From: an uncultured Lachnospiraceae bacterium
Lineage (GTDB): Bacteria > Bacillota > Clostridia > Lachnospirales > Lachnospiraceae
NCBI GenBank assembly: GCA_900317825.1
Contig: ONIH01000012.1
Span: forward strand, 1-62,211
Reading direction: 5' to 3'
Length of the DNA: 62,211 bases
The notes below the pieces were generated by a model, which was given only the letters and a program-made list of their open reading frames with translations, searched no databases and had not been told where the DNA came from. A program made the translations under genes and the position numbers. This document shows positions 4,108-37,467 of this stretch, in pieces. Positions within the stretch are counted from its first letter, which is position 1, and each line of letters opens with the position of its first letter.

Positions 4108-5571
4108 TTAATTATCTCCTTTGTATTTCCAACCAGTCTCTGCTTTTTCTCTTGCCTTATCTGTCTCTTGCTGATCATAGACTATGACCGGAAAGCCGGT
4201 CTCTACGTACTTGTACAGCTTCTTTGCCATCTCAGGCGGCATGTTCACACAGCCATGCGATCCGGCAGTCTTGTAGATCTCACCACCGAACCTGCCATGA
4301 CGCCACGGAGCATCGTGGAAACCGATATTGCCATTAAATGGCATCCACCATGAAACCGGTGAAGCATAACCCTGCCCCTTCAGAGTGGCGTCCTTTGTCT
4401 TATATGTGATCCGGTAAGTACCTGTAGGTGTCCGCCTGTCAGGGACATCCTTTCCAGTCACGACATCAGAATCGAGCACTTTTTTACCGTTTATCACGAG
4501 GAACATATGCTGGGTGGCGATGTTCACCTCGGCGTAGCTGTTTCCGTAATCGTGCGCATAGTCGCCGTGATTTGCAGCTTTGTAATGGTACACAGGCTCT
4601 CTGGTCACGTCCTTACCGGCCTTCAGGTCAGCCTTTATCTGGTCACGCTCTCCGGCATAGTTTATCCACCAGCCGTAGTTTCCTCCCTTTACTGTCGCTG
4701 TCTTACCATACTGTGTCTTCAGTTTTCTCGGAAGACCCATGGTATTGTACTTATAGCCGAGAGTCATCTGGGCGTATTTATAAATGGCATCATCGTCAAA
4801 AGTGACTTTTCCGTTCTTGTCGACCTTGAGCCATTTGACCTGGTCTTCTTTAGCGACCTTCACTTTTCCCTTGTCGCCCATATCATATGTGATATCGACC
4901 TTCAGGTATTTATTCAGGTTCTTTACTGTCTTTTTGAGCTGTGCATTGTCGCTTTTTATCTCAGGCTCGATGTAGTCTCCGCTCTCCCTTAAATCAAGCG
5001 TCTCATCGAGTGAAGTCAGCGCCTTTTCGATGCTTTTTATCAGGGCATCACGGTCTATCTCTGTCCCGTAGATCTCCTTTTTGACCTTAGCACCTTCATC
5101 GGTTATCTCATATGTAGCGTTTTCAGACTTCACAGGCTCTGAAGTAACAGCAGAAAGTCCGTCTACAGCACTCTCGAGCGCAGCCTTGTCAAAATTCGCA
5201 GACATGGACGGAACCTCGACGTCAGTATTCTTTCTGAAGAAAGCTTCAGGCCAGGAGCCGACCTTCTGTGAGTCAAGGATCTTCTGCGCAGCGGCCTTTG
5301 CCGAGCTGTCATCAAGGGACAGGGAAACGTCCTTTCCGTACAGCACGTCGTCTGTGTTATCGCCTTTTATGTCAAGCGAATAAGACGATGATGAGTCCTT
5401 TAAGATGTCGACTATGCCATCCAGGTCTTTACCGTCTGCCTTCTCGCCTGCTATACGGCTTCCCGGCATCACATGGCTCGTGTAATAGAAGGCCGTGCCG
5501 GCATATATGGCTGCTATCGCTGTGACCACGAGAACCGTGATCAGTAAACCCTTGTGCTTCATTTTTTTCAT
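4108..5571 (-). CDS. L,D-transpeptidase (YkuD) with peptidoglycan-binding-like repeats
   Basis: Membrane-anchored enzyme forming 3-3 crosslinks in peptidoglycan or attaching proteins to it. 487 aa: a short cytoplasmic N-terminus, one membrane segment (about 7-28), an extracellular region of about 300 residues resembling the paired PG_binding_4 domains, then a YkuD domain from about residue 340 with the catalytic motif SHGCVNMPP and the upstream IGFHDAPW. First gene of a six-gene operon; a promoter TTGAAA-N17-TAGTAT is visible at 5597-5625. Linkage to hisC and hydE is not explained by function. Confidence 0.92.
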   Translation of the reverse strand: MKKMKHKGLLITVLVVTAIAAIYAGTAFYYTSHVMPGSRIAGEKADGKDLDGIVDILKDSSSSYSLDIKGDNTDDVLYGKDVSLSLDDSSAKAAAQKILDSQKVGSWPEAFFRKNTDVEVPSMSANFDKAALESAVDGLSAVTSEPVKSENATYEITDEGAKVKKEIYGTEIDRDALIKSIEKALTSLDETLDLRESGDYIEPEIKSDNAQLKKTVKNLNKYLKVDITYDMGDKGKVKVAKEDQVKWLKVDKNGKVTFDDDAIYKYAQMTLGYKYNTMGLPRKLKTQYGKTATVKGGNYGWWINYAGERDQIKADLKAGKDVTREPVYHYKAANHGDYAHDYGNSYAEVNIATQHMFLVINGKKVLDSDVVTGKDVPDRRTPTGTYRITYKTKDATLKGQGYASPVSWWMPFNGNIGFHDAPWRHGRFGGEIYKTAGSHGCVNMPPEMAKKLYKYVETGFPVIVYDQQETDKAREKAETGWKYKGDN

Positions 5572-11031: not shown

Positions 11032-12876
11032 CTATAACCTTACCCTGTATTTTTTTATCTTCGCCTGAATGCTCCGCACTCCGTTATATTCATTTATATC
11101 CGGATCGTAGACGATGTCAAGCCTTATTTGATTTTTCTGGCCAGAAAGCGCCTTCGCAAGCTCGCCTTCACCGAATGCCCCGGTAATGTCCCTGTCCATC
11201 GCATCTCCGTCTCCGAAGTAAAGCGCATCGACCATCGTGCCTTTTGATGAAAGTGTCAGTTTCCTGTACTGCTGTTCTTTTCCTATTCTCCTGTATGACA
11301 GGACATCCAGCCCATTCTCCGCAAAAACCGGCTTCTCATTCCCGTTTCCGAATGGTTCGAGCTTCTGCAGGTCATCTATCAGTGAAAAACTGGCGTAGTA
11401 CAGCGGCATCGGTACGTCTATCATGACCTTCTCCTGCAGGTCATCGTCTACAAGCCCGCTGTGATCATTTAAAAATGTCCTTAGCCAGTCCACATCCTCT
11501 CCTCTCATAGAAAGGCCTGCTGCCATAGGATGTCCGCCGAACTTCGTAAAGACTCCGTCCCCGCCGTATGCTTCGTTGGCTTCGACCATTTTTTCATACA
11601 TGGAATAGGCCTCGATGCTTCGGCCACTGCCCTTTACATCTCCATTCTCTGTCTTACAGAGGACAAATACCGGGCGATAGAACTTCTCCTTGAGCTTCCC
11701 TGCCACCAGTCCGCATAGGCTCTCATGCAGATCCGGTATGTATAAGACCATGACCTTTGGCAGCTCTGTCCTGCCGCTCAGCTCTTCAAAGGCTCTGTCC
11801 ACACCCTTCTGCGTCATGCCTTTTCGCTCTTCGTTAATAGATACGAGTTCTTCTGCTTTCTCCATGGCTCTGCCCGGGTCATTCTCCAAAAGAAGGTCTA
11901 AAGCCTTCTCAGCACTGTCTATACGTCCTGAGGCGTTAAAGCACGGTCCTAAGACAAAGCCTATGTGCCATGCCTGGATGTGGTTTCTGTCAAGACCAGC
12001 AGCATCTATAAGTGCGTCAAGTCCGACATTCCCGGAATGTGACATCTGCTTTAAACCGAAGCTCACTATAACACGGTTCTCATCCCGGAGCTCCATGATG
12101 TCAGTCACAGTCGCAAAAGCAGCTTCAGGCAGATACTTAAGAGCATCCATCCTGCCACAGTCTTCAAAAAGTGCCGTTATCATCTTAAACGCTACGACTG
12201 CGCCACAAATACCTGGGAACGGATAACTGTCATCCGCCCTGTGCGGATCTACCACACAGTTCGCATGAGGCAGATGGTAGACCTTCCCATCGCTGAAAAA
12301 ATCGTAAACACCATGCTCAGTGTCAGCCTCTTTCGGAAGCCGTGCAGTATCATCTCCTTCTTCAGGAGTGGAATACGGGATCTCGTGATGGTCAGTGACT
12401 ATGACTGTCATGCCTTTATCTCTCGCCAGCTGTACAGCCTCAGCTGCAGCTATGCCATTGTCACAGGTGATCACTGCTTCTATGCCCTCAGAAGCTGCCT
12501 TCTCCACCATCTCAGGGTTCAGGCCGTAACCATCATGGACTCTGTCCGGCAGCTTGTAATCGACATCGGCTCCGACTGACCTAAGTCCATCGACAAGGAT
12601 ATACGCGGAGCAGATACCGTCTCCGTCATAGTCTCCGAATACACGGATTTTTTTCTTATCGTGTATCAGTGACTGTATAAGCCTGACTGCCATGTCCATG
12701 TCCTTCATCAGATGGGGGCTGTGAAGCTGCGACAGATCCGGGGATAAGAACCTTCCCATCTCTTCTTCATGTATATCACGATTTATCATGATGCGTGCCG
12801 TGACCTGATCTATACCATACTTTGCTGCCAGCTTCTTGAAATCCGCCTTTTTACAGTAGCATTCCCATTTTGCCAT
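11032..12876 (-). CDS. recJ: Single-strand-specific 5'-3' exonuclease RecJ
   Basis: DHH-family exonuclease in recombination and mismatch repair. Motifs: FGDYDGDGICSAY (motif I), TCDNGIAA, VIVTDHHEIP (DHH), then the DHHA1 domain with KGSGRSIEA and FGGHPMAAGLS. I chose the ATG at 12874-12876 (MAKWECYCKKADFKKLA), which matches the usual RecJ N-terminus and gives 614 aa. An upstream in-frame ATG at 12933 would add 19 residues but lies inside the hairpin at 12891-12947. The OhrR-type gene lies upstream; the lipase gene follows after 9 bp. Confidence 0.92.
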   Translation of the reverse strand: MAKWECYCKKADFKKLAAKYGIDQVTARIMINRDIHEEEMGRFLSPDLSQLHSPHLMKDMDMAVRLIQSLIHDKKKIRVFGDYDGDGICSAYILVDGLRSVGADVDYKLPDRVHDGYGLNPEMVEKAASEGIEAVITCDNGIAAAEAVQLARDKGMTVIVTDHHEIPYSTPEEGDDTARLPKEADTEHGVYDFFSDGKVYHLPHANCVVDPHRADDSYPFPGICGAVVAFKMITALFEDCGRMDALKYLPEAAFATVTDIMELRDENRVIVSFGLKQMSHSGNVGLDALIDAAGLDRNHIQAWHIGFVLGPCFNASGRIDSAEKALDLLLENDPGRAMEKAEELVSINEERKGMTQKGVDRAFEELSGRTELPKVMVLYIPDLHESLCGLVAGKLKEKFYRPVFVLCKTENGDVKGSGRSIEAYSMYEKMVEANEAYGGDGVFTKFGGHPMAAGLSMRGEDVDWLRTFLNDHSGLVDDDLQEKVMIDVPMPLYYASFSLIDDLQKLEPFGNGNEKPVFAENGLDVLSYRRIGKEQQYRKLTLSSKGTMVDALYFGDGDAMDRDITGAFGEGELAKALSGQKNQIRLDIVYDPDINEYNGVRSIQAKIKKYRVRL

Positions 12877-27781: not shown

Positions 27782-28513
27782 ATGAAAACACCACTAGTAT
27801 GGGCTCACAGAGGAGCCAGCGGATATGCGCCAGAGAACACGATTCCGGCATTTGAGCTTGCAGCAGAGATGGGAGCCGACGGAGTCGAGCTCGATGTCCA
27901 GTTCACCAAGGACGGACAGATCGTTGTCTGCCACGATGAGACCATTGACCGTACTTCAAACGGCTGTGGCTGGGTAAAGGACCACACACTTGAAGAGCTC
28001 AAGGCACTCAGTTTTGACAATGGAAATAAAGCATACGAGGGCGCACAGATTCCTACGATGCAGGAAGTATTCGACGCACTTCGCCCTACGAATCTCACGA
28101 TAAATATTGAGCTCAAGACCGGCATTATTTTTTATAAAGGTCTTGAAAATGATATCATCGACCTTGTCCATAAGAATAAATTCGAGGACAGGGTCATCTA
28201 CTCTTCATTCAACCACTATTCCGTGATGAAGATAAAGGAGCTCGACCCACAGGCAAAGACCGGCTTCCTGTACATGGACGGCCCTCTCGATATGCCGGCA
28301 TATGGCAGGCTCCATGGTGTGGATGCGCTTCATCCGGCGCTATACAATCTCCAGTTCCCTGACTTCATGAAAGAGTGCGCAGAGAACGGCCTCGATGTAA
28401 ATGTCTGGACCGTAAATGAAGAGAAATATATGCAGATGTGCCAGCAGGCCGGTGTTCATGCGATCATCACGAACTATCCAAAGAGAGCGCTCGAGCTGTA
28501 TGGGAGAAAATAA
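27782..28513 (+). CDS. Glycerophosphodiester phosphodiesterase
   Basis: 243-aa TIM-barrel GDPD: WAHRGASGYAPENT (catalytic His, Arg), GADGVELDVQFTKDG (Glu, Asp), VVCHDETIDRTSNG (His). Releases glycerol-3-phosphate from deacylated phospholipids. No signal peptide, so cytosolic. AGGAGG precedes the ATG. It ends 2 bp before the lipase gene at 28516, which could supply lysophospholipid products; a coupled lipid-turnover pair is a reasonable reading. Confidence 0.93.
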   Translation: MKTPLVWAHRGASGYAPENTIPAFELAAEMGADGVELDVQFTKDGQIVVCHDETIDRTSNGCGWVKDHTLEELKALSFDNGNKAYEGAQIPTMQEVFDALRPTNLTINIELKTGIIFYKGLENDIIDLVHKNKFEDRVIYSSFNHYSVMKIKELDPQAKTGFLYMDGPLDMPAYGRLHGVDALHPALYNLQFPDFMKECAENGLDVNVWTVNEEKYMQMCQQAGVHAIITNYPKRALELYGRK

Positions 28514-28515
28514 TT

Positions 28516-29481
28516 ATGGAGCTGCCAGGTGAAGACGATTTCCTCGATGCGATGAAGGGGCCATGCCGCGAGTGGCGTGAGCGTTGTGTCAAAAATGCTG
28601 CGTTCACATCATTCGACGGTACCAGGATCAACTATTACTATGCCATCCCGGATGACCCGAAGGCAATCATTGTGATGTTCCACGGATTCTGTGAATTCTG
28701 GGGCAAATATCACGAGATGGCATGGTATTACTACAGGCAGGGATATGGATTCTTCTTCCCGGAAATGAGAGGCCATGGCCTCTCAGGCGGCAAGCTGCCT
28801 GAGAAGGATCTCGTGCATGTGAAGAACTATGATCAGTATGTCACTGATATGAAGATGCTCTATGATCAGGTGGTATCTCAGAAAAAGATCCCGTCCGTGC
28901 CGCGGATACTTTTCGCTCATTCTATGGGAGGAGCCATTGCTGCCCTGTATCTGGAGAAATATCCTTCGGACTACAGTGCAGCCATCCTTTCAAGCCCGAT
29001 GGTTAAGCTGAAGACTGGAGGCATCTCTCCTGCAAAAATAAACCTGCTCCGTCTCTATGTGCATCTCTTTCATAAGGAAAAGAAGCTGTCTGTCGGCCAG
29101 CATCATTTCGATGGAGTAAATGTATTTGAGACTTCCAGCTGTCAGTCTGAGCCGAGGTACAACTACCTGTTCGGCCAGCGTCTGGAGAATGTCGAATATC
29201 AGACATATGGGGCCACCTTTGGCTGGTCCCTGGCATCTCTTTCAGCCACAAAAAAGCTGATAAAGAATGCTGACCGCATCAGAGTTCCTCTCCTGGTCTT
29301 CGAAGCAGGCAACGATCACCTAGTGGATCCGTCAGGCTATACAGAATTCCTGGCAAAGGTGCCACAGGCACAGCATATAAAGTATCCTACGTCAAAGCAT
29401 GAGATTTTCAATTCAACAACGGATGTGAGGACAGATTATTATAAGAAGATATTTGAGTTTCTGGAACAGAGAAGCAAATGA
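28516..29481 (+). CDS. Alpha/beta hydrolase, lysophospholipase (PldB)-like
   Basis: 321 aa from MELPGEDDFLDAMKGP, with GGGAG about nine bases upstream; the in-frame start at 28438 lies inside the GDPD gene and is rejected. VMFHGFCEFWGKY, MRGHGLSGG, LFAHSMGGAIAALYL (nucleophile Ser), an Asp in FEAGNDHLVDP and His in SKHEIFN complete the triad. Follows the GDPD gene by 2 bp. Its 3' end overlaps the antisense OPT remnant. Confidence 0.9.
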   Translation: MELPGEDDFLDAMKGPCREWRERCVKNAAFTSFDGTRINYYYAIPDDPKAIIVMFHGFCEFWGKYHEMAWYYYRQGYGFFFPEMRGHGLSGGKLPEKDLVHVKNYDQYVTDMKMLYDQVVSQKKIPSVPRILFAHSMGGAIAALYLEKYPSDYSAAILSSPMVKLKTGGISPAKINLLRLYVHLFHKEKKLSVGQHHFDGVNVFETSSCQSEPRYNYLFGQRLENVEYQTYGATFGWSLASLSATKKLIKNADRIRVPLLVFEAGNDHLVDPSGYTEFLAKVPQAQHIKYPTSKHEIFNSTTDVRTDYYKKIFEFLEQRSK

Positions 29482-29698
29482 AAACCCTGTGAAAAATAAA
29501 CCTCACAAGTCCCATAGAAACTACGGCTGCCGGGACCGACGCCGACACCGTCATCCCGACACAGAGTCCGAGATACGCGTTTGCCGCCCCGAATACGATA
29601 GCCAGGATAATACCCAGAATCACCGAGAACGGCGTCATCTCAGCCATCTGCTTGTCATCGGAAATGAATGGCTTAAACTGCGACTGCTGTACTGACAT
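29408..29698 (-). pseudogene. Truncated OPT-family oligopeptide transporter (N-terminal remnant)
   Basis: The first ~70 residues match the start of OPT/YSL transporters: EMTPFSVILGIILAIVFGAANAYLG, VGMTVSASVPAAVVSMG. The full protein should be about 600 aa, but the frame runs into the end of the opposite-strand lipase gene and stops after 96 aa. The ribosome site AGGAGG is intact, so a short peptide may be made. The rest was lost on the left side, presumably when the lipase/GDPD genes were joined here. Confidence 0.75.
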
Positions 29699-29887
29699 TT
29701 TTATAAGACCTCCTGAAAATAGTTAGCAGACGTCAAAAATCTTTTACTTTTGACATTTGCTGTGCCGGATTTGCGCCGCATAAGTGGCACGTTTCCTTTG
29801 CAAATCCGTGCACAACAATAGTAGAGCCATGCCTCTAAGCACAGCCCTACTATTAAAAATGAGCGAGAACAAAGTCAATAAACAGTA
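29699..29887. other. Non-coding stretch with three hairpins left of the island
   Basis: Three inverted repeats in a row: GTCAAAA/TTTTGAC (29732-29754), GGATTTGC/GCAAATCC (29767-29808), and AATAGTAG/CTACTATT (29817-29854) extended by a wobble-containing stem. Before the island arrived this DNA would have been directly downstream of scrB, so the last hairpin may be the old scrB terminator, and the first may be an operator of the lost OPT gene. Confidence 0.5.
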
Positions 29888-29908
29888 TTATACGATTGTC
29901 CATCCTTC
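29888..29908. repeat. Left 21-bp direct repeat of the island (attL-like)
   Basis: 21 bp starting TTATACGATT and ending CCATCCTTC, identical to 36109-36129, the last seven codons of scrB including the stop. Bases outside the repeats differ on both sides. Confidence 0.85.
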
Positions 29909-29945
29909 CATGATTTGTTATAAAATAGTTTTGCCTGAGATGAGA

Positions 29946-29980
29946 AAAATCTTGATTTTATTCGCGATTGAGAGTATAGT
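29946..29980 (+). promoter_or_regulatory. Promoter of the methyltransferase operon
   Basis: TTGATT (29952-29957), 17-bp spacer, TATAGT (29975-29980); predicted start about 10 bp before the ATG, giving a very short leader with GAGGTG. A 14-bp palindrome AAAATCTTGATTTT (29946-29959) overlaps the -35 box and could be an operator. Confidence 0.6.
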
Positions 29981-29996
29981 AAGTTTGAGGTGACTT

Positions 29997-32627
29997 ATGG
30001 ATTATATATCAATTAATGAATTATCAGGGAAATGGGATATAAGCAAGCGCAGAATACAGACACTGTGTAGGGAGGGACGTATACATGGCGCCATTCAAGT
30101 GGGTAATATGTGGATCATTCCTGAGAATGTGTCACGCCCAGCTGATGAAAGAAAAAAGAATGTAGTCAGTAAATTTCAGACTGATATATCTAGTAGAAAT
30201 ATGCTGAAGAGGGCCATAAGTGCATCTGTACAAGCTTGCCGTAAGTATGGAATACCAGACAGGTATATACGGGACAAGATTATTACTATATTTGCAGCAT
30301 CCTTATTAAATACATATTTTCCAGACAAAAAATATGAAGATTGCTGTCAGTTAATTACTGATACCATAGGAACCTGTCAGTATAATAAAGTTGGAGCAGA
30401 TGCAATAAGAAATGTTGCTATGGATCTTGTTAATAATCCGACAATAAATAAAGACAATTTTATCTCATGGACATATCAGTATCTTGGAAAAATTTTTTCT
30501 AATACGCCGGTAACAAGAACACAGTTTTTTACTGAACAATACATGGTTGATTTTCTTATCTGTTCTAATGATCTGATCAGTGATAAATACAAAGTTGTTG
30601 ATCCATGCTGTGGTGGGGGAAATTTCCTTGCGGGTTATCTGGAGCATATATGTCAAAAAAAACAGAATTGCTCAAAGTTGGATATATTCCATATAGTGAA
30701 TCATCTGTATGGATATGATATAGACGAAGATATGGTTAAGGCATCGTTGCTTAATATAAGACTAAGAGCAGAAAAGATTATATCTCTATATGATGTTCCT
30801 GATATAGAAGACTGGAAAAAACTCAACCCTTGTCTGTGGAGTACATCAGGTAGAAAAAATAAGTATGGCTCTCTTGATTATGAAAATCAAGTAGTGAATA
30901 TTCTTAGTGGAAAAAAGGCTACAATTAAGGAAGCACTTGGGGAAGCAGATATTATTATGACTAATCCTCCTTTTGCAACTGCAAAAGGAATGGATCCGGA
31001 ACTAAGGGATTTTCTGCGTAATAACTATAGTATTGCTGAATCAGATATGTGTGTTTCCTTTTTTATGGAAATCAATAGTCTGTTAAAAAAGAATGGGTAT
31101 TGTGGAATAGTCACGCAGACGGCTTGGATGCATTTGGATTCTTTTAAGGATTTCAGAAAATTCTTTGTGAAAAGCTATGGGGTGGAAAAAATAGCTGATC
31201 TTGGTTCAGGAGCTTTTCAGGATTTATCTGGAGAGAAAACCAATGTAGCTTTACTTTCTATAAGAAAAGGTATAGATCGTAAATCATTCTCATATGGTAG
31301 TTTTAAATCACTTGGTTATCAGAAAAAAATTTCAAGTCTGTCAAACAAGGAATATTGGAAGGATATGAAAACATCAGATGTATTCAAAACTGATGGTTCT
31401 CCGGCAGATTTTGAAATGACATCAGAGATGAAGTCTATTTTTGAAAATTGCAGCAATTACAAAAGCTATGCTGTACCTATGCAAGGTACATCAACAGGAA
31501 ATGCTAAAGAACTCATCGATTTTTACTGGAAACATATTGGAGATGGGGATTGGATTCCGGTAAGCAAAGGTGGAGGATATTGTAGATGGGAGGGGCTTAA
31601 CAGGTATGTAGTAAAATGGGGCAAGGACGGAGAATATATCAAAGAAAATAAAGGATCGGCAATAAGAAATGTCAGGTATTTTAATGAAACACAGATGGTA
31701 TTTAGTGATACCGGTACATCAGGACTTAATGTAAGGATGCTTATGCCAGGTCAGATTTTTGTTGCTTCAGGTCCGGGAATTAGAGTCTTACAAGGAAAGA
31801 CAGGTGCACATATGGCTTACCTTAATTCACGTATGGCCAGCTGTTTCATGAAGATATTCTCACCTAAACTTACTATATCGGCCGGATATATATCAAGACT
31901 GCCATCGAATGATGCGCTACTTGATTCGGATGTGCTTGAAAACCTGGCCAAAAGATGCATAGAAATGAAACGACGGTCACTAAGACGAAGACCTGTGAAT
32001 AGAGAATACTCATTTGATGACATTGATATGTCGACAGTAGATATTGAATATCTGGCAGCAAAGACAATATCTGATGAGTTGAATGAAGAGCTGGAAAAGC
32101 TCAGATGTGAAGCTGAAATAGATAGCGAGATAATGAGAATATTAGAAGTTTCTGATGAGGAGGAGATACATCTAGATGAGTCTGAGGGATTATGCGCCTA
32201 TAATATTGATAATCGTCCTGTACTTGATGTACATAATCTTGACAAGATGATTTGCGCAAATCTTGATTGCAGATGTCAGCTGAAGAGAACTAAAGTAGAT
32301 GGACATTCTCTTGGGTGTGATGGAATTCTGGAATTTTTATCAAGAAAGCTGACTGTTAATCCTGAGTATATAACTGGTATTGTAGTGAAAAATATTGATA
32401 AGATGTCAGGACTTATAGCATTGTACAAAAAAATGTTGCTACAGAATCTGATACTTAATGAAGCGGGCTTTTCTATACACAGCAATATATCTGGTGGGTG
32501 GAACTATGACGATGTTGTAGGAAATATCATCAGTAGATATAATCTGACCAGAGAAGACACGGAATGGATAAGGAATGGTTTTAAAGGTTATCATAATGAG
32601 TTTTTCTATGGTAAGGGGATATTATAA
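29997..32627 (+). CDS. Gamma-type N6-adenine DNA methyltransferase with N-terminal HTH
   Basis: 876 aa. Residues ~4-50 are a helix-turn-helix (ISINELSGKWDISKRRIQTL). Methyltransferase: motif X near TRTQFFTEQYMV, motif I DPCCGGGNFLAG (202-213), motif IV IIMTNPPFATAKG (from ~319), so N6-adenine, gamma order. Residues ~500-650 (WIPVSKGGGY, YVVKWGKDG, FVASGPGI) resemble the target-recognition region of PglX and type IIG enzymes. No nuclease domain is visible. Its stop overlaps the next ATG (TAATG). The HTH could let it regulate its own or the nuclease promoter, as some type II methyltransferases do (inference). Confidence 0.88.
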   Translation: MDYISINELSGKWDISKRRIQTLCREGRIHGAIQVGNMWIIPENVSRPADERKKNVVSKFQTDISSRNMLKRAISASVQACRKYGIPDRYIRDKIITIFAASLLNTYFPDKKYEDCCQLITDTIGTCQYNKVGADAIRNVAMDLVNNPTINKDNFISWTYQYLGKIFSNTPVTRTQFFTEQYMVDFLICSNDLISDKYKVVDPCCGGGNFLAGYLEHICQKKQNCSKLDIFHIVNHLYGYDIDEDMVKASLLNIRLRAEKIISLYDVPDIEDWKKLNPCLWSTSGRKNKYGSLDYENQVVNILSGKKATIKEALGEADIIMTNPPFATAKGMDPELRDFLRNNYSIAESDMCVSFFMEINSLLKKNGYCGIVTQTAWMHLDSFKDFRKFFVKSYGVEKIADLGSGAFQDLSGEKTNVALLSIRKGIDRKSFSYGSFKSLGYQKKISSLSNKEYWKDMKTSDVFKTDGSPADFEMTSEMKSIFENCSNYKSYAVPMQGTSTGNAKELIDFYWKHIGDGDWIPVSKGGGYCRWEGLNRYVVKWGKDGEYIKENKGSAIRNVRYFNETQMVFSDTGTSGLNVRMLMPGQIFVASGPGIRVLQGKTGAHMAYLNSRMASCFMKIFSPKLTISAGYISRLPSNDALLDSDVLENLAKRCIEMKRRSLRRRPVNREYSFDDIDMSTVDIEYLAAKTISDELNEELEKLRCEAEIDSEIMRILEVSDEEEIHLDESEGLCAYNIDNRPVLDVHNLDKMICANLDCRCQLKRTKVDGHSLGCDGILEFLSRKLTVNPEYITGIVVKNIDKMSGLIALYKKMLLQNLILNEAGFSIHSNISGGWNYDDVVGNIISRYNLTREDTEWIRNGFKGYHNEFFYGKGIL

Positions 32628-34804
32628 TGCAAACTAATCTGGAACTGATAGACAGAATCATTAGTGACGAAATAAATAAGAAGTGTGACCTATCGGACTG
32701 GAAACAGGTCAGAAAGATGTACGGAGCTTTTTCTTTTGATGTATTTCTTACGTTGGTAGCTGATTGTGATGCTGACCCGGCAGGGTATGCTGCTGAATGC
32801 CGATATATTTCTGAGGACATATACAATTATATTAATAGTAATTCTTCTATGTCTGACTTTCTGAAAAAGACTTCAAAATATTTGAAAGATATTAATTCTG
32901 ATAATATATGTTTGTTGTATCAGAATTATCTGGCTCAGGATTTTTCTATCATAGATGGCAGCTTTTGTTTTGCTTCTGGGAAAAACCACAGAGATGTGAT
33001 AGGAGCATACTATACCTCAGAAAAATTAGCTGCATCAATAGCTGAATGGTCGTTGGATAGCTGGTTTGAAAAAAATGGATACGCTGTCTTTCCCAAAGTA
33101 CTTGATAGTACGTGCGGTGGAGGAGAGTTTCTGCTTGAAGTGATTCATTATTACAGAAAGAAAGGTATTGATATTTCACGCCTGGTTGGAAAAAATATAT
33201 GCGGATTCGATGTTGATCCGCTGGCTGTGCTTATTACAAGATACAGACTCACTATGGAGACAGGGCAAAAAAAATGTGATATGGATATCAGACTGGGGAA
33301 TCCTTTGTGTGTTTCCGCAAATGAAAACAATTCAGATAAGTTTGATATGGCCTTGGAGGGACGATATTATTCTTCAGATATGGGTATAGAAACTGATGAA
33401 AAGTATGATGTTATTCTTGGCAATCCACCTTGGGAGAAAATTAGATTCGAGGAAAAAAAGTTTTTAAAGCCTTATGTGGAAAATGATGTTATAAAGGAGA
33501 AGAATAAGCGTGCTGAGTTCATTGCATCTATAGGTGCATTGAATCGTAAATATATAGAATCGGTGGTAGGGGATTATACATCTTTTAAAAAAAATGTAAA
33601 AAGGCATCCTCTGTTGAGTGATTCATTGGTAGGAGAATTAAATACATACGCGCTTTTCTCTGAACTAACATCAAGTATTATGCGGGAACGTGGTGAAGCT
33701 GCATTGATAGTTAAGGCCTCGCTGCTTAAAATGCCTGTCTATAAAAACCTCTTCAGGAAATATACTCAGAATGGACAACTCTATAAAATAGATTTGTTTA
33801 AGAATAATAAAAGAATTTTTCCGATAGATTCAAGAGAAGAATTCGCGGTTATATATATGCATGAGGATATGAATGATGATAACGGCGTTATCAACACAAG
33901 GTTCGGGCTTAAATCAATTGAAGATTTAAAAAAAGATAATCTGATATGCCAGATGTCAACAGATTTTTTCTTAAAGGTTAATCCTGATACTGGAATGCTG
34001 CCAAACGTCAATAGTATTAAGGATGTGTATTTCCTGAATTCTGTATATGAAAAATGCAGATATTTTGAAGAAGTTTTTCCGGATTGCAGATATGGTAGAC
34101 TGGTGCATTTTACTAATCATGCTGCTCATATTGAGAGACAGTACCATGATGGATATATACCGGTGTATGAAGGAAAATTTATAGACAGGTATTCAGGGAA
34201 ATATGCAACATTTGCAGGGATGGATGATTCTGATAAATATAAGAACAAGGCCAATGCAAGAAAGATAGATGATACACATGGAAATGAGTATCCGGTAAGT
34301 CGATACTTTATACAGGGCGAGTTCTGGAAAAGATTGTCAAAGAACATGCATGAACCGTTTTCTGTAATGTGGAGAAGTTTGACATCAGCGACCAATTCAA
34401 GAACTATGATAGCTACAATTCTCCCAAATATTCCGACAAGTCAGTCAATTCAATTATTGCAGACAGAAAAAGAAGATGAGATTTTGATTCTGGCCTTATT
34501 TAATTCTGAATGTTTTGATAGGATAGTAAGAAAAAAAATGGTAGGATTAGATATGACTCAGGCAGTAGTGAAGCAGATGCCTGTCCCTGAAAAGAAAAGT
34601 TTTGATAGTAAATGTACTCTATCAGGAATCAGAGCATCTCTTAAGGTGCATATTTTCTCGAGGATTAGGAAACTGTACCTAGATGACAGCAGACTTGACA
34701 CACTGTTTGATGGGATAGAATTCTATGATATTGATGGAACGTTAAATAGCAGGCTGATGATATTAGAAATTGATCAACTTGTAGAAATGGCATACGGTTT
34801 ATAG
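32627..34804 (+). CDS. Second gamma-type N6-adenine DNA methyltransferase (Eco57I-like)
   Basis: 725 aa. Motif X GAYYTSEKLA (126-135), motif I LDSTCGGGEFLLEV (~159-172), motif IV VILGNPPWEKIRF (~262-274). The C-terminal half with VHFTNHAAHIERQY, VYEGKFIDRY and SATNSRTMIATILP is the Eco57I-like type of substrate region. Starts on the stop of the first methyltransferase (1-base overlap), so coupled. Two distinct methyltransferases suggest an asymmetric site methylated on each strand by a different enzyme. Its stop interlocks with the stop of the opposite-strand nuclease gene (TTATAG, 34799-34804). Confidence 0.88.
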   Translation: MQTNLELIDRIISDEINKKCDLSDWKQVRKMYGAFSFDVFLTLVADCDADPAGYAAECRYISEDIYNYINSNSSMSDFLKKTSKYLKDINSDNICLLYQNYLAQDFSIIDGSFCFASGKNHRDVIGAYYTSEKLAASIAEWSLDSWFEKNGYAVFPKVLDSTCGGGEFLLEVIHYYRKKGIDISRLVGKNICGFDVDPLAVLITRYRLTMETGQKKCDMDIRLGNPLCVSANENNSDKFDMALEGRYYSSDMGIETDEKYDVILGNPPWEKIRFEEKKFLKPYVENDVIKEKNKRAEFIASIGALNRKYIESVVGDYTSFKKNVKRHPLLSDSLVGELNTYALFSELTSSIMRERGEAALIVKASLLKMPVYKNLFRKYTQNGQLYKIDLFKNNKRIFPIDSREEFAVIYMHEDMNDDNGVINTRFGLKSIEDLKKDNLICQMSTDFFLKVNPDTGMLPNVNSIKDVYFLNSVYEKCRYFEEVFPDCRYGRLVHFTNHAAHIERQYHDGYIPVYEGKFIDRYSGKYATFAGMDDSDKYKNKANARKIDDTHGNEYPVSRYFIQGEFWKRLSKNMHEPFSVMWRSLTSATNSRTMIATILPNIPTSQSIQLLQTEKEDEILILALFNSECFDRIVRKKMVGLDMTQAVVKQMPVPEKKSFDSKCTLSGIRASLKVHIFSRIRKLYLDDSRLDTLFDGIEFYDIDGTLNSRLMILEIDQLVEMAYGL

Positions 34805-36028
34805 CATACCGTATGCCTTCGAACCCGCACCTGCACCATTAAGAGCCCATATCATGCTGCTATTCTTGATTTGTTGCAGAAAACTGCTGTCTACTGTTGA
34901 AAGAGCGTAATAATCTTTTCTGATCTTTTCAAATATAAGAATTTTATCGACAAAATCACCATTACTTCCATACGCAGAAAGTTTTTCTGAACCATCATTC
35001 GGAACAGGATCGCCTTTTAACTGTATTCTCCAACTTCCATTATTAGGAGCGTAAAGAATGGTAGATGGGTAATAATCTCTTCCGAGATAGTTGATGGTTA
35101 TGTTATTCCTTGTTCCAGTTCTATCAGGTGTTATTCCAAAGAATTTTATTCCTCCCAGCATTTTATTAGTTTCTCCAGGGATTTCATATTGTGTTCCAAC
35201 GACTGAGCCATGTTGTATTACACCAGTCATGGACAGATCAAGTATATTTCTTGATCCTCCGGTGGATTTACGCATTTCAAACCAAAACCTTTCATTTGTA
35301 GATGGGTATATCTGAGTATTACTCCTGGATTCAACAATGCCTTTATAGGCTTTTTTTAAATAAGCGGTAGAAGAATCTTTCTTACTGATATTCAGCTTTG
35401 GTATCGATACTTTGTCACTTCCAAATATTTTATTTCCTCGAACCTTTCCTGTTATTTTTCCTTTGCTTCTCACACGGACAATCTGAGATGTTTCGAAGTC
35501 AATATATCCATTTGCATACAGCCTATCAATATCTTTTACTGAATCAACCTTTAAAGAGCAAGGATATGAAGGATCCGTGTATCTGTTTATTATATCAGCG
35601 ATTTCAGAAGGAATATCGTCAAATTCAGTGAACATTGCAGTTTCATAATTTGTCCACAAACCTCCACCAGTGAGGTTATTAGACCCGACAGCGCACCAGC
35701 AGGAGTCTGCACTATTAAGACAATATATTTTGCTGTGATATGTGGATGCCATATTTTCAGAATGGATTACATATAGACTGTCACACATGTGATAGAGGTT
35801 TTCCAGGGCTTCATAAGAAGTACCATCCAGATCGACACCAATAAAGGCTGTGATTTTGCCATCATTATTGTTATGGAATATATCAATAGCGTTTTTTAGA
35901 CGCAGTACCCCGCTGTTTTTTGCGAAGGCTGAAAAAATATATAACTCATTATATTTCTCTTGGAGCTTATTGATAATAATTTTTCCAAATGCACCATCAA
36001 ATGGCTGGTTAAATAGTTTAGCATTCAT
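34799..36028 (-). CDS. PLD-family restriction endonuclease, BfiI/NgoFVII-like
   Basis: 409 aa. N-terminal PLD half-site TYHSKIYCLN ... AVGSNNLTGGGLWTNYE: His98, Lys100, Asn118, Glu129. The spacing (20 residues H to N, 11 N to E) equals that of the catalytic H105/K107/N125/E136 of BfiI as I recall it, and like BfiI it lacks the usual PLD Asp. Such enzymes dimerise and cut without metal. Residues ~230-400 (ERFWFEMRKSTGGSRNILDLS) match the B3-like DNA-recognition half of the NgoFVII family. No ATPase or helicase is encoded nearby. Promoter TTGTTG-N17-TAAAAT overlaps a 22-bp palindrome. Confidence 0.88.
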   Translation of the reverse strand: MNAKLFNQPFDGAFGKIIINKLQEKYNELYIFSAFAKNSGVLRLKNAIDIFHNNNDGKITAFIGVDLDGTSYEALENLYHMCDSLYVIHSENMASTYHSKIYCLNSADSCWCAVGSNNLTGGGLWTNYETAMFTEFDDIPSEIADIINRYTDPSYPCSLKVDSVKDIDRLYANGYIDFETSQIVRVRSKGKITGKVRGNKIFGSDKVSIPKLNISKKDSSTAYLKKAYKGIVESRSNTQIYPSTNERFWFEMRKSTGGSRNILDLSMTGVIQHGSVVGTQYEIPGETNKMLGGIKFFGITPDRTGTRNNITINYLGRDYYPSTILYAPNNGSWRIQLKGDPVPNDGSEKLSAYGSNGDFVDKILIFEKIRKDYYALSTVDSSFLQQIKNSSMIWALNGAGAGSKAYGML

Positions 36029-36083
36029 TTTTTAACATTCCCTTCTTATATCATTTCAAACTTCAAAAGTTATTTTAACATAG

Positions 36084-36105
36084 ATTTCTTGTTACAACAA
36101 GAAAT
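36084..36105. promoter_or_regulatory. 22-bp palindrome over the nuclease promoter
   Basis: ATTTCTTGTT-AC-AACAAGAAAT: perfect 10-bp arms, 2-bp centre. On the minus strand it overlaps the -35 region of a TTGTTG-N17-TAAAAT promoter for the nuclease gene and lies between that gene and the right direct repeat. A good candidate operator for timing nuclease expression; it could also fold as a weak terminator of scrB. Confidence 0.6.
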
Positions 36106-36108
36106 TAT

Positions 36109-36129
36109 TTATACGATTGTCCATCCTTC
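36109..36129. repeat. Right 21-bp direct repeat of the island (attR-like)
   Basis: Identical to 29888-29908; on the minus strand it encodes EGWTIV and the TAA stop of scrB. Confidence 0.85.
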
Positions 36130-37467
36130 AAGGCTTTTAGCGTTGTCAGCCTTAAGGATAACGTCGTCCGGGTCCTCTGGATAATACCTCGTCGTAAATA
36201 CAGTTTCGCCGTCATTTACGAAAATCTCCAGAAGACTCCTGTCAAAAATCAGCCGGATTTTTTTCACAGGTGAAGACTCCGCGTGTCTTACCGTCCTGCC
36301 ATCACCGGTATCATTTAAGAACTCAAGCCTGAGTCTGCCATCCTTTACTGAAAAAATCAGATCGTCGTTTAGCCTGAAAAGTTCAGCGTCAGATACGTTA
36401 TCGAATTCGAGAGTCATATCCCAGGCTCCGCCCTCCGGTGCAGTAATCTGCTTTTCGTGTCTCGTATCAAGCTCCCTTACCGGCAGCTGATACAGCTTTC
36501 CATTCTTAGCCTTAAGTTCACGCAGCAGAGTCATAGAATGCTGCCATCCCTCTGCTATTGTGGGAGCGTTCTCATATCCGGCATCCGGAACTCCGGCCCA
36601 TCCTATAAGGATCTGTCTCCCGTCAGGTGTCGTAAAAGTCTGCGGCGCGTAAAAATCAAATCCCTTGTCCCATTCCTGAAAGCATTCTATACTTATCTGC
36701 CTACTCAGCTCTTCATCAGAAGCACTCCCGATTATATCCCCGTTCAACTCACAGTATCCCGATTCGTAGGTGTTCTGGAACCTGTCTGACTCATGCCTCA
36801 TTCCCTGCGGACAGAAACCCACGAACTGTCTTCCATCCACAGTGAAATAATCAGGACACTCGAGCATATATCCGAAATCGTTCTCAGGAAAATACTCCCT
36901 GGCTAGAGACCATTTTTTCCTGTCCGGCGACTTCATCAGAAGCAGTCCGCCTTTCGATGTACGGCTTCTCATACCTAGAAGCATATAGTAAGCCTCACCG
37001 CTCTTCCAGACCTTCGGGTCCCTGACATGGCAGGACAGATCGGACGGGTAGTCATCGTTTGTCAGAAGGAGCTGCTTTTCTCCCGGATGGATCCCGTCCT
37101 TAAAATCCACCCTCAGTACATTATGTCCACGGCCTTCATTTATGTAGTCGTAATCACCAGGATGCTTGACATTTCCTGTATAGTAGGCCTCGAGGACACC
37201 GTCTCCGGTGTATGCAGTTCCTGAATAGACTCCGTCGCTGTCCCACTCCGTGTCAGTGACTATCGGCGTGTCCACGTAAGTGAAGTGCGCGAGATCCTCA
37301 GATACATAGTGGCCCCAGTACCTTCCTCCTTCTCCTGTCGGACTGTCGGGCGTATACTGAAAAAATATATGATACTTCCCGTCAAACCAGCAGGAGCCAT
37401 TCGGATCATTGAGCCATCCCTCAGGCGGCTGTATATGAAATCTATGTCTGTATTTTCCTTCAAGCAT
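36109..37467 (-). CDS. scrB: Sucrose-6-phosphate hydrolase (GH32)
   Basis: 452 aa. Hydrolyses sucrose-6-phosphate delivered by the PTS to glucose-6-phosphate and fructose. GH32 motifs: HIQPPEGWLNDPNGSCWFDG (nucleophile Asp), FQYTP, SCHVRDPKVW (stabilising RDP) and MLECPDYF (acid/base Glu). The C-terminal beta-sandwich is complete. Cytosolic, no signal. It follows the PTS gene by 23 bp and is cotranscribed. Its last 21 bp are one copy of the direct repeat flanking the island, and the frame is intact. Confidence 0.95.
   Translation of the reverse strand: MLEGKYRHRFHIQPPEGWLNDPNGSCWFDGKYHIFFQYTPDSPTGEGGRYWGHYVSEDLAHFTYVDTPIVTDTEWDSDGVYSGTAYTGDGVLEAYYTGNVKHPGDYDYINEGRGHNVLRVDFKDGIHPGEKQLLLTNDDYPSDLSCHVRDPKVWKSGEAYYMLLGMRSRTSKGGLLLMKSPDRKKWSLAREYFPENDFGYMLECPDYFTVDGRQFVGFCPQGMRHESDRFQNTYESGYCELNGDIIGSASDEELSRQISIECFQEWDKGFDFYAPQTFTTPDGRQILIGWAGVPDAGYENAPTIAEGWQHSMTLLRELKAKNGKLYQLPVRELDTRHEKQITAPEGGAWDMTLEFDNVSDAELFRLNDDLIFSVKDGRLRLEFLNDTGDGRTVRHAESSPVKKIRLIFDRSLLEIFVNDGETVFTTRYYPEDPDDVILKADNAKSLEGWTIV

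Follow-up and report, generated by a model that had tools for sequence, protein, structure and literature searches.

Insertion of restriction-modification (R-M) units with duplication of the target has been described (Nobusato 2000 and Furuta 2010, as cited in PMC3874152); the duplications are short in some cases and on the order of 100 bp in others, and rearrangements often accompany them (PMC3874152, PMC3031569). Elements that use tyrosine recombinases are generally flanked by repeats of 8-60 bp, and many reside in the 3′ ends of housekeeping genes, where one repeat carries the gene end (PMC5704250). Cis-mobilizable elements (CIMEs), decayed elements in which only repeats and cargo remain and which measure 1.2-13 kb if cargo is present, are reported to be very prevalent in streptococci, and some of them lie in composite islands at the fda 3′ end (PMC7563491). 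In this study, we analyzed a stretch of 62,211 nucleotides (the window; contig ONIH01000012.1, assembly GCA_900317825.1) from an uncultured Lachnospiraceae bacterium, in which a three-gene R-M unit is precisely inserted at the 3′ end of scrB and leaves the gene unharmed.

Two groups of described enzymes resemble products of the unit. The active site of the restriction endonuclease BfiI comprises H105, K107, N125, and E136 (PMC4081073). The methyltransferases EcoRII, SsoII, and Ecl18kI repress their own synthesis through an N-terminal helix-turn-helix (HTH) domain at an operator in their own promoter (PMC3874152).

Results

Structure of the insert at the scrB 3′ end

The source of the window is a draft genome of 53 contigs that is about 90% complete, and the insertion is known from its assembly. 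The last 21 bp of scrB, stop codon included, form the 21-mer TTATACGATTGTCCATCCTTC, which is present in exact copies at 29888-29908 and 36109-36129. When up to three mismatches were allowed, the 21-mer was found twice in its own genome, both times at the insert borders and nowhere else. The first-pass annotation, which had reported the exact repeat correctly, also held that the sequences differ outside it. Exact identity does end at 21 bp, but an imperfect match runs on to 29 bp, over which the left and right copies agree at 26 of 29 positions. As a control, we drew 1,107 6.2-kb segments from the window and compared 100 bp on either side of each edge; the longest word common to two edges elsewhere was 13 bp.

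Between the repeats lie two methyltransferase genes (MT1 and MT2) and a PLD nuclease gene (Table 1), and the other open reading frames (ORFs) of at least 80 aa are two short ones that overlap these genes. The G+C content is 35.7% in the insert compared with 47.6% in the remainder of the window, in agreement with the earlier description of an AT-rich three-gene cassette. The left repeat lies 88 bp before MT1, and the right repeat lies 80 bp past the PLD start. The ORF of scrB is complete, and the reading frame is kept whole by the insertion at its 3′ end, as had been noted. Separately, a palindrome made of a perfect 10-bp inverted repeat with a 2-bp center stands 3 bp from the right repeat; it may serve as a terminator or be bound by a dimer.

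Table 1. Coordinates of the insert, its borders, and its target gene in the window.
Feature	Position	Strand	Remarks
Left 21-bp direct repeat	29888..29908	.	Exact; imperfect match to 29916
Operator-like GATGAG-N15-ATTCGC	29939..29965	+	Conserved pattern; overlaps MT1 promoter
MT1, 876 aa	29997..32627	+	N-terminal HTH_17-like domain and Eco57I/N6_Mtase-type adenine methyltransferase, PglX-like
MT2, 725 aa	32627..34804	+	Second Eco57I/N6_Mtase-type adenine methyltransferase
PLD-family restriction endonuclease, 409 aa	34799..36028	- (convergent)	BfiI-like; PLD domain and B3-like C-terminal domain
22-bp palindrome ATTTCTTGTT-AC-AACAAGAAAT	36084..36105	.	Between PLD gene and right repeat; read directly
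Right 21-bp repeat	36109..36129	.	Last 21 bp of scrB with stop codon
scrB, GH32 sucrose-6-phosphate hydrolase	36109..37467	-	Target gene, intact

An empty site in a relative

Related genomes were searched with one genome per species. A member of the same genus (G005), whose scrB is 97% identical, holds one 21-bp copy (L013, 13028-13048) with contiguous flanks: on its contig C137, the left flank of the insert (window 29822-29887) runs directly into scrB. The empty-site comparison proposed in the first-pass annotation was therefore positive, and the single copy matches the repeat; over the 29-bp stretch, the left copy agrees with the empty site at 27 and the right copy at 28 positions. A single copy with contiguous flanks means that 6,221 bp were gained here or were lost very precisely in G005. 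Because the PLD gene occurs in only one of the 13 genus genomes (G005 itself being 83% complete), the simpler reading is that the lineage of the window gained the insert after parting from G005, not that G005 lost it precisely.

No relative was seen that carries the cassette at the same site without border repeats. The search for other cassettes at this site, also proposed earlier, found none: with up to three mismatches, the 21-mer is present in two of the 13 genus genomes (G000 and G005). With up to one mismatch, the rows listed for 397 family genomes contain the source genome alone, G005 not being among them. The scrB 3′ end is different in three other members of the genus.

The neighborhood of the insert was also compared with that of G005. 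The OPT transporter gene, given earlier as a neighbor of scrB, is present, but as a truncated gene (29408-29698, minus strand). It is cut after about 70 codons at a junction at about 29482; the neighbor there is an alpha/beta hydrolase gene (28438-29481), which has its stop next to the junction. In G005, the OPT gene continues. The end of the hydrolase gene in G005 (L024) borders other DNA with an ORF that is transposase-like by eye. The OPT junction marks a rearrangement and lies about 400 bp away from the insert. About 100 bp of the window (29720-29821) are missing in G005 between OPT and the left repeat. In another relative (G008), an IscB gene (L014:9068-10306, minus strand; NCBIfam NF040563, 393 bits) lies downstream of scrB.

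The nuclease and the methyltransferases

Judging by its sequence and predicted fold, the PLD enzyme looks like a restriction endonuclease of the BfiI/NgoAVII type. Residues H98, K100, N118, and E129 are invariant across 27 aligned homologues, and the spacing of the HxK, N, and E positions is identical to that of BfiI. The profile matches include BfiI (2c1l), NgoAVII (4rct), and SauUSI (7clg), the predicted fold agrees with them, and a B3-like C-terminal DNA-recognition domain is present. By active-site spacing, profile match, and fold, the protein appears to be a restriction endonuclease, and the earlier speculation that it takes part in mobility found no support. A related PLD protein (37.5% identity) is encoded on the small Psychrobacter plasmid pA3H10 (L085) near DNA that matches EcoRI-family methyltransferases; the nuclease may therefore have paired with other methyltransferases elsewhere.

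The N-terminus of MT1 scores 25.2 bits against HTH_17 (cut-off 27), and its counterpart in the related locus L041 scores 27.8 bits. In PADLOC, MT1 matches PglX models and one type IIG model (179 and 173 bits), and in NCBIfam it matches BREX_1_MTaseX (BREX PglX) at 199.9 bits, far under the curated cut-off of 500. Assignment of MT1 and the PLD enzyme to BREX or DISARM was rejected, the NCBIfam scores being far below the curated cut-offs and the unit containing no other BREX or DISARM gene. A type IIG reading of MT1 was likewise set aside, as no nuclease domain was found in MT1. Presumably, MT1 and MT2 each modify one strand of an asymmetric site, and the unit is a type IIS-like R-M system.

Related units and their surroundings

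A scan of genome contigs with six peptide patterns returned 30 relatives of MT2, and a PLD match was present in 12 of the 397 family genomes sampled, the source genome included. The order MT1, MT2, convergent PLD gene is kept in 31 of 35 related loci, in which L056 and L076 represent one locus; of the remaining four, L048, L052, and L060 run into contig ends, and L069 shows no PLD gene. Broken genes were seen in three units (L047, L068, L077). Short methyltransferase matches were all that E. coli yielded, phage records gave no DNA or protein match, and no relative of the PLD protein was confirmed in viral contigs.

The units lie in many surroundings. The neighboring genes encode a uracil-5 RNA methyltransferase (L045; rlmD in Enterococcus gallinarum), IMP dehydrogenase (L064), an amidotransferase/phosphoribosyltransferase (L077), and a class II tRNA synthetase (L046), and no common target gene was apparent by eye among the neighboring ORFs. 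Some units have a recombinase or replication gene no more than a few kb away, namely a large serine recombinase (L058) or RepA_N (L044, L050, L067).

Two pairs of Lachnospiraceae loci share more than 75% DNA identity in different surroundings, and in both the homology covers the unit only. Counted before MT1 and past the PLD start, it extends from -66 to +61/+60 in L073/L074 and from -69/-66 to +75 in L040/L041. The repeats in the window start 88 and 80 bp out, so the insert here is a bare unit too. Pairs from Bacteroidetes share longer stretches, which begin about 690-750 bp ahead of the MT1 match (itself starting within the gene) and reach no more than 256 bp beyond the PLD match.

Strong flanking repeats surround only four of 30 relatives scanned; the scan covered loci with both MT1 and PLD (thus not L048, L052, L060, or L069), one flank of L040 and of L046 was limited to 207 and 151 bp, respectively, and L077 was omitted as too short. 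Three of the four are from Bacteroidetes: L061 (178 bp, 95.5% identical, 4473-4651 and 11425-11602), L059 (73 bp, 97% identical, 4598-4670 and 11866-11938), and L065 (86 bp, 89.5% identical, 2557-2642 and 11199-11284, with a ParDE pair also in between). Only in L061 does the repeat start near the unit, at 136 bp beyond the PLD start; those of L059 and L065 lie 0.5-1.3 kb past it with other ORFs between. The fourth, around L041, was rejected as a duplication at the unit edge, as it consists of paralogous gene fragments. No clean empty site emerged when the genera of G047, G116, and G216 were searched (3, 1, and 3 genomes), and among the matches listed when plasmids were searched with the E. gallinarum and Psychrobacter loci, none was usable.

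A conserved sequence at the MT1 promoter

By eye, a possible -35 element (TTGATT, 29952-29957) and -10 element (TATAGT, 29975-29980) precede MT1, and a GATGAG site brackets the possible -35. The pattern GATGAG-N15-18-RTTCK occurs upstream of MT1 in 20 of 23 rows of the comparison whose MT1 has the N-terminal HTH and in none of the 13 rows without it. It was derived from the same loci on which it was then counted, so this count describes the pattern and does not test it; the 13 rows are mostly from Bacteroidetes, and the contrast is partly kinship. The pattern appears in 0.13% of shuffled upstream regions that kept base content only. The three misses are L056 and L076, which are the same locus and show the motif if the MT1 start is taken further downstream, and the decayed L047. 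One of the 20 carriers (L058) ends in TTCT rather than TTCG. The 13 motif-less rows include L077, cut by the contig end, and L068, a partial match; 18 sequences were aligned. In a Bacteroidetes locus (L053), a separate HTH gene (Pfam HTH_31/HTH_3) precedes MT1, and by eye similar ORFs are present in L055, L057, L063, L065, and L068.

The conserved sequence is probably an autoregulatory operator bound by MT1. We consider this role the likeliest because some methyltransferases are known to repress themselves in this way, their N-terminal HTH acting on an operator within the promoter of the same gene; alternatively, it may be the methylation site of the system itself. No description of a GATGAG-N-RTTCK operator was found in the literature searched, and we do not claim that none has been published. 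The candidate operator is common to systems from Lachnospiraceae, Facklamia, and Enterococcus whose MT1 proteins are only about 35-42% identical to that of the window, and it provides a checkable regulatory circuit for a PLD-type system. It is the more novel part of our findings, the unit itself being of a known kind.

Discussion

Overall, our analysis identifies a real and precise insertion of a known kind of R-M unit. As to its origin, the first-pass annotation had left a choice between a recombinase acting in trans and R-M insertion with target duplication. There is evidence on each side, and the single target copy in the empty relative and the two copies around the unit are expected under duplication and attachment (att) sites alike. 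We tentatively favor att-type site-specific recombination that left a CIME-like passenger at the scrB end. The unit would then be a passive passenger at the 3′ end of scrB. In this model, a circle that bore a copy of the terminal 21-29 bp of scrB would cross over with the gene end, and the scrB C-terminus would be restored from the incoming copy. The putative recombinase would have been encoded outside the unit and would have acted in trans or been lost with the remainder of a putative larger element. The repeat edge falls exactly on the scrB stop codon, as that of an att site selected for restoration of gene ends could. The empty site in G005, the length of the repeat and its location at a gene end, the intact target, the reported prevalence of CIMEs, the foreign base composition, and the proximity of some relatives to recombinase or replication genes also support this model.

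Several observations weigh against att-type recombination. The insert contains no recombinase gene, as had been noted, and is not an integrative and conjugative element (ICE), an integrative and mobilizable element (IME), or a prophage with its own integrase. The draft genome has one PF00589 match, an Xer-like tyrosine recombinase on another contig, and no PF00239 match, transposase families not having been searched. Viral contigs hold no exact core, and their six degenerate matches look unrelated; by eye, they lie inside viral sequence and are not gene ends beside an integrase. Additionally, the repeats hug the unit, so a larger element must have lost everything else and yet kept both repeats. 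The 21-mer is poorly conserved (two of 13 genus genomes and one of 397 family genomes), which makes it an unlikely target of a dedicated integrase; with no exact match in viral contigs either, a dedicated integrase site was rejected. Moreover, the stop-codon edge is a single post hoc coincidence, for which we estimate a chance of roughly 1 in 60-100 at a random edge.

The closest rival is R-M insertion with target duplication, which we regard as only somewhat less likely. According to this explanation, the unit, lacking a recombinase, would have been taken up where a staggered break had opened the end of scrB, and 21-29 bp would have been copied on both sides; restriction-linked rearrangements are included. 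The insert is a bare unit whose relatives occupy many contexts, and homology covers the unit only in both Lachnospiraceae pairs. At base 22, the left copy has the base of the empty site, whereas the scrB copy differs. The OPT breakpoint nearby fits the rearrangements often associated with such insertions, and among the two recombinase families searched, the genome yielded only the Xer-like enzyme. The long repeats around L061, L059, and L065 also point in this direction; however, strong repeats surround few relatives, those of L059 and L065 stand off from the unit, that of L041 has another origin, and no empty site is known for any repeat-flanked relative. Furthermore, terminal inverted repeats are not significant (none anchored; p about 0.09 with small offsets), and under duplication only chance would have made the repeat end exactly at the stop codon.

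Elements that exploit dif sites and pdif modules provide a precedent for capture by Xer-type recombination, in which the Xer-like recombinase of the host would have recombined the module into a dif-like sequence within the end of scrB. We consider this very unlikely. The sole tyrosine recombinase found (L072:1447-2526, minus strand) is indeed Xer-like, matching best the XerS model and then XerC and XerD, all under curated cut-offs. The host junction agrees with a dif consensus at 14 of 22 positions, a score reached at 187 of 124,368 window positions; however, the alignment was picked after seeing the site, and other window sites score up to 16 of 22. Of four comparisons between the junctions and the region upstream of the Xer gene, one approached significance (p 0.058 for the right junction on one strand, compared with 0.33, 0.49, and 0.94 in the remaining three). 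Similarity to difSL on the forward strand was not significant (p 0.24 and 0.50). Xer/dif recombination is thus not supported by the junction scores and comparisons. The consensus used was not found in the passages of PMC3025954, a paper on dif.

It is less likely still that the unit is a mobile element in its own right, in which the HTH of MT1 would recognize GATGAG-N-RTTCK as an end, and the PLD enzyme, through a covalent DNA intermediate, would cut target and unit and drive capture at gene ends. If true, this would be a transposition route without a transposase or integrase. In L073/L074, the homologous DNA has its left edge at the conserved GATGAG sequence, and BfiI acts through a covalent intermediate (PMC4081073), as the PLD enzyme should likewise. 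However, the GATGAG sequence overlaps the promoter, which allows a simpler reading; by eye, there is no conserved right end and no target gene common to the relatives, and there are no significant inverted repeats.

An assembly artefact is similarly improbable: 21 is a common k-mer size in assembly and the exact repeat has just this length, but scrB ends in this 21-mer in G005 as well, the three genes are intact and in the family order, and two chance joins at one and the same 21-mer would be very unlikely.

The insertion is a good test locus and not a new kind of element. A bare R-M unit can be compared here with the cleanly empty site of a close relative, which makes the movement of recombinase-less units testable at one locus.

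Compared with known systems, the insert resembles CIMEs in that direct repeats enclose its cargo at the 3′ end of a gene, the target is intact, and recombination and transfer genes are lacking (PMC7563491, PMC5704250). It differs from them in that no related ICE or IME with the same att core was found in the genus (one genome per species), the family sample, or viral contigs, the cargo is exactly a bare unit, and the target is poorly conserved. With R-M units inserted by target duplication, it shares the lack of a recombinase, a duplicated target on the flanks, and an adjoining rearrangement; in contrast to the class with roughly 100-bp duplications, 21-29 bp are repeated here, and unlike the short-duplication class, the insert has no significant imperfect terminal inverted repeats. 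Its edge exactly at a stop codon is a further difference.

The enzymes can be compared in the same way. MT1 matches BREX PglX, and the best PADLOC match of the PLD enzyme is DISARM DrmC (8e-6). Similar to BfiI/BmrI and NgoAVII/NgoFVII, the unit combines a PLD catalytic domain with the same residue spacing, a B3-like recognition domain, and companion methyltransferases, but the identity of the nuclease in the fold alignments is only 10-21%. NgoAVII has an ATPase gene, unlike the unit described here. The lack of an ATPase gene also distinguishes the unit from CglI (PMC5737866). In contrast to BfiI-like systems, the first methyltransferase here is PglX/Eco57I-like with a fused HTH. This N-terminal HTH, together with a conserved site overlapping its own promoter, likens MT1 to EcoRII, SsoII, and Ecl18kI. 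These three are cytosine-5 enzymes, whereas in the present unit an HTH_17-type domain is carried by an adenine methyltransferase.

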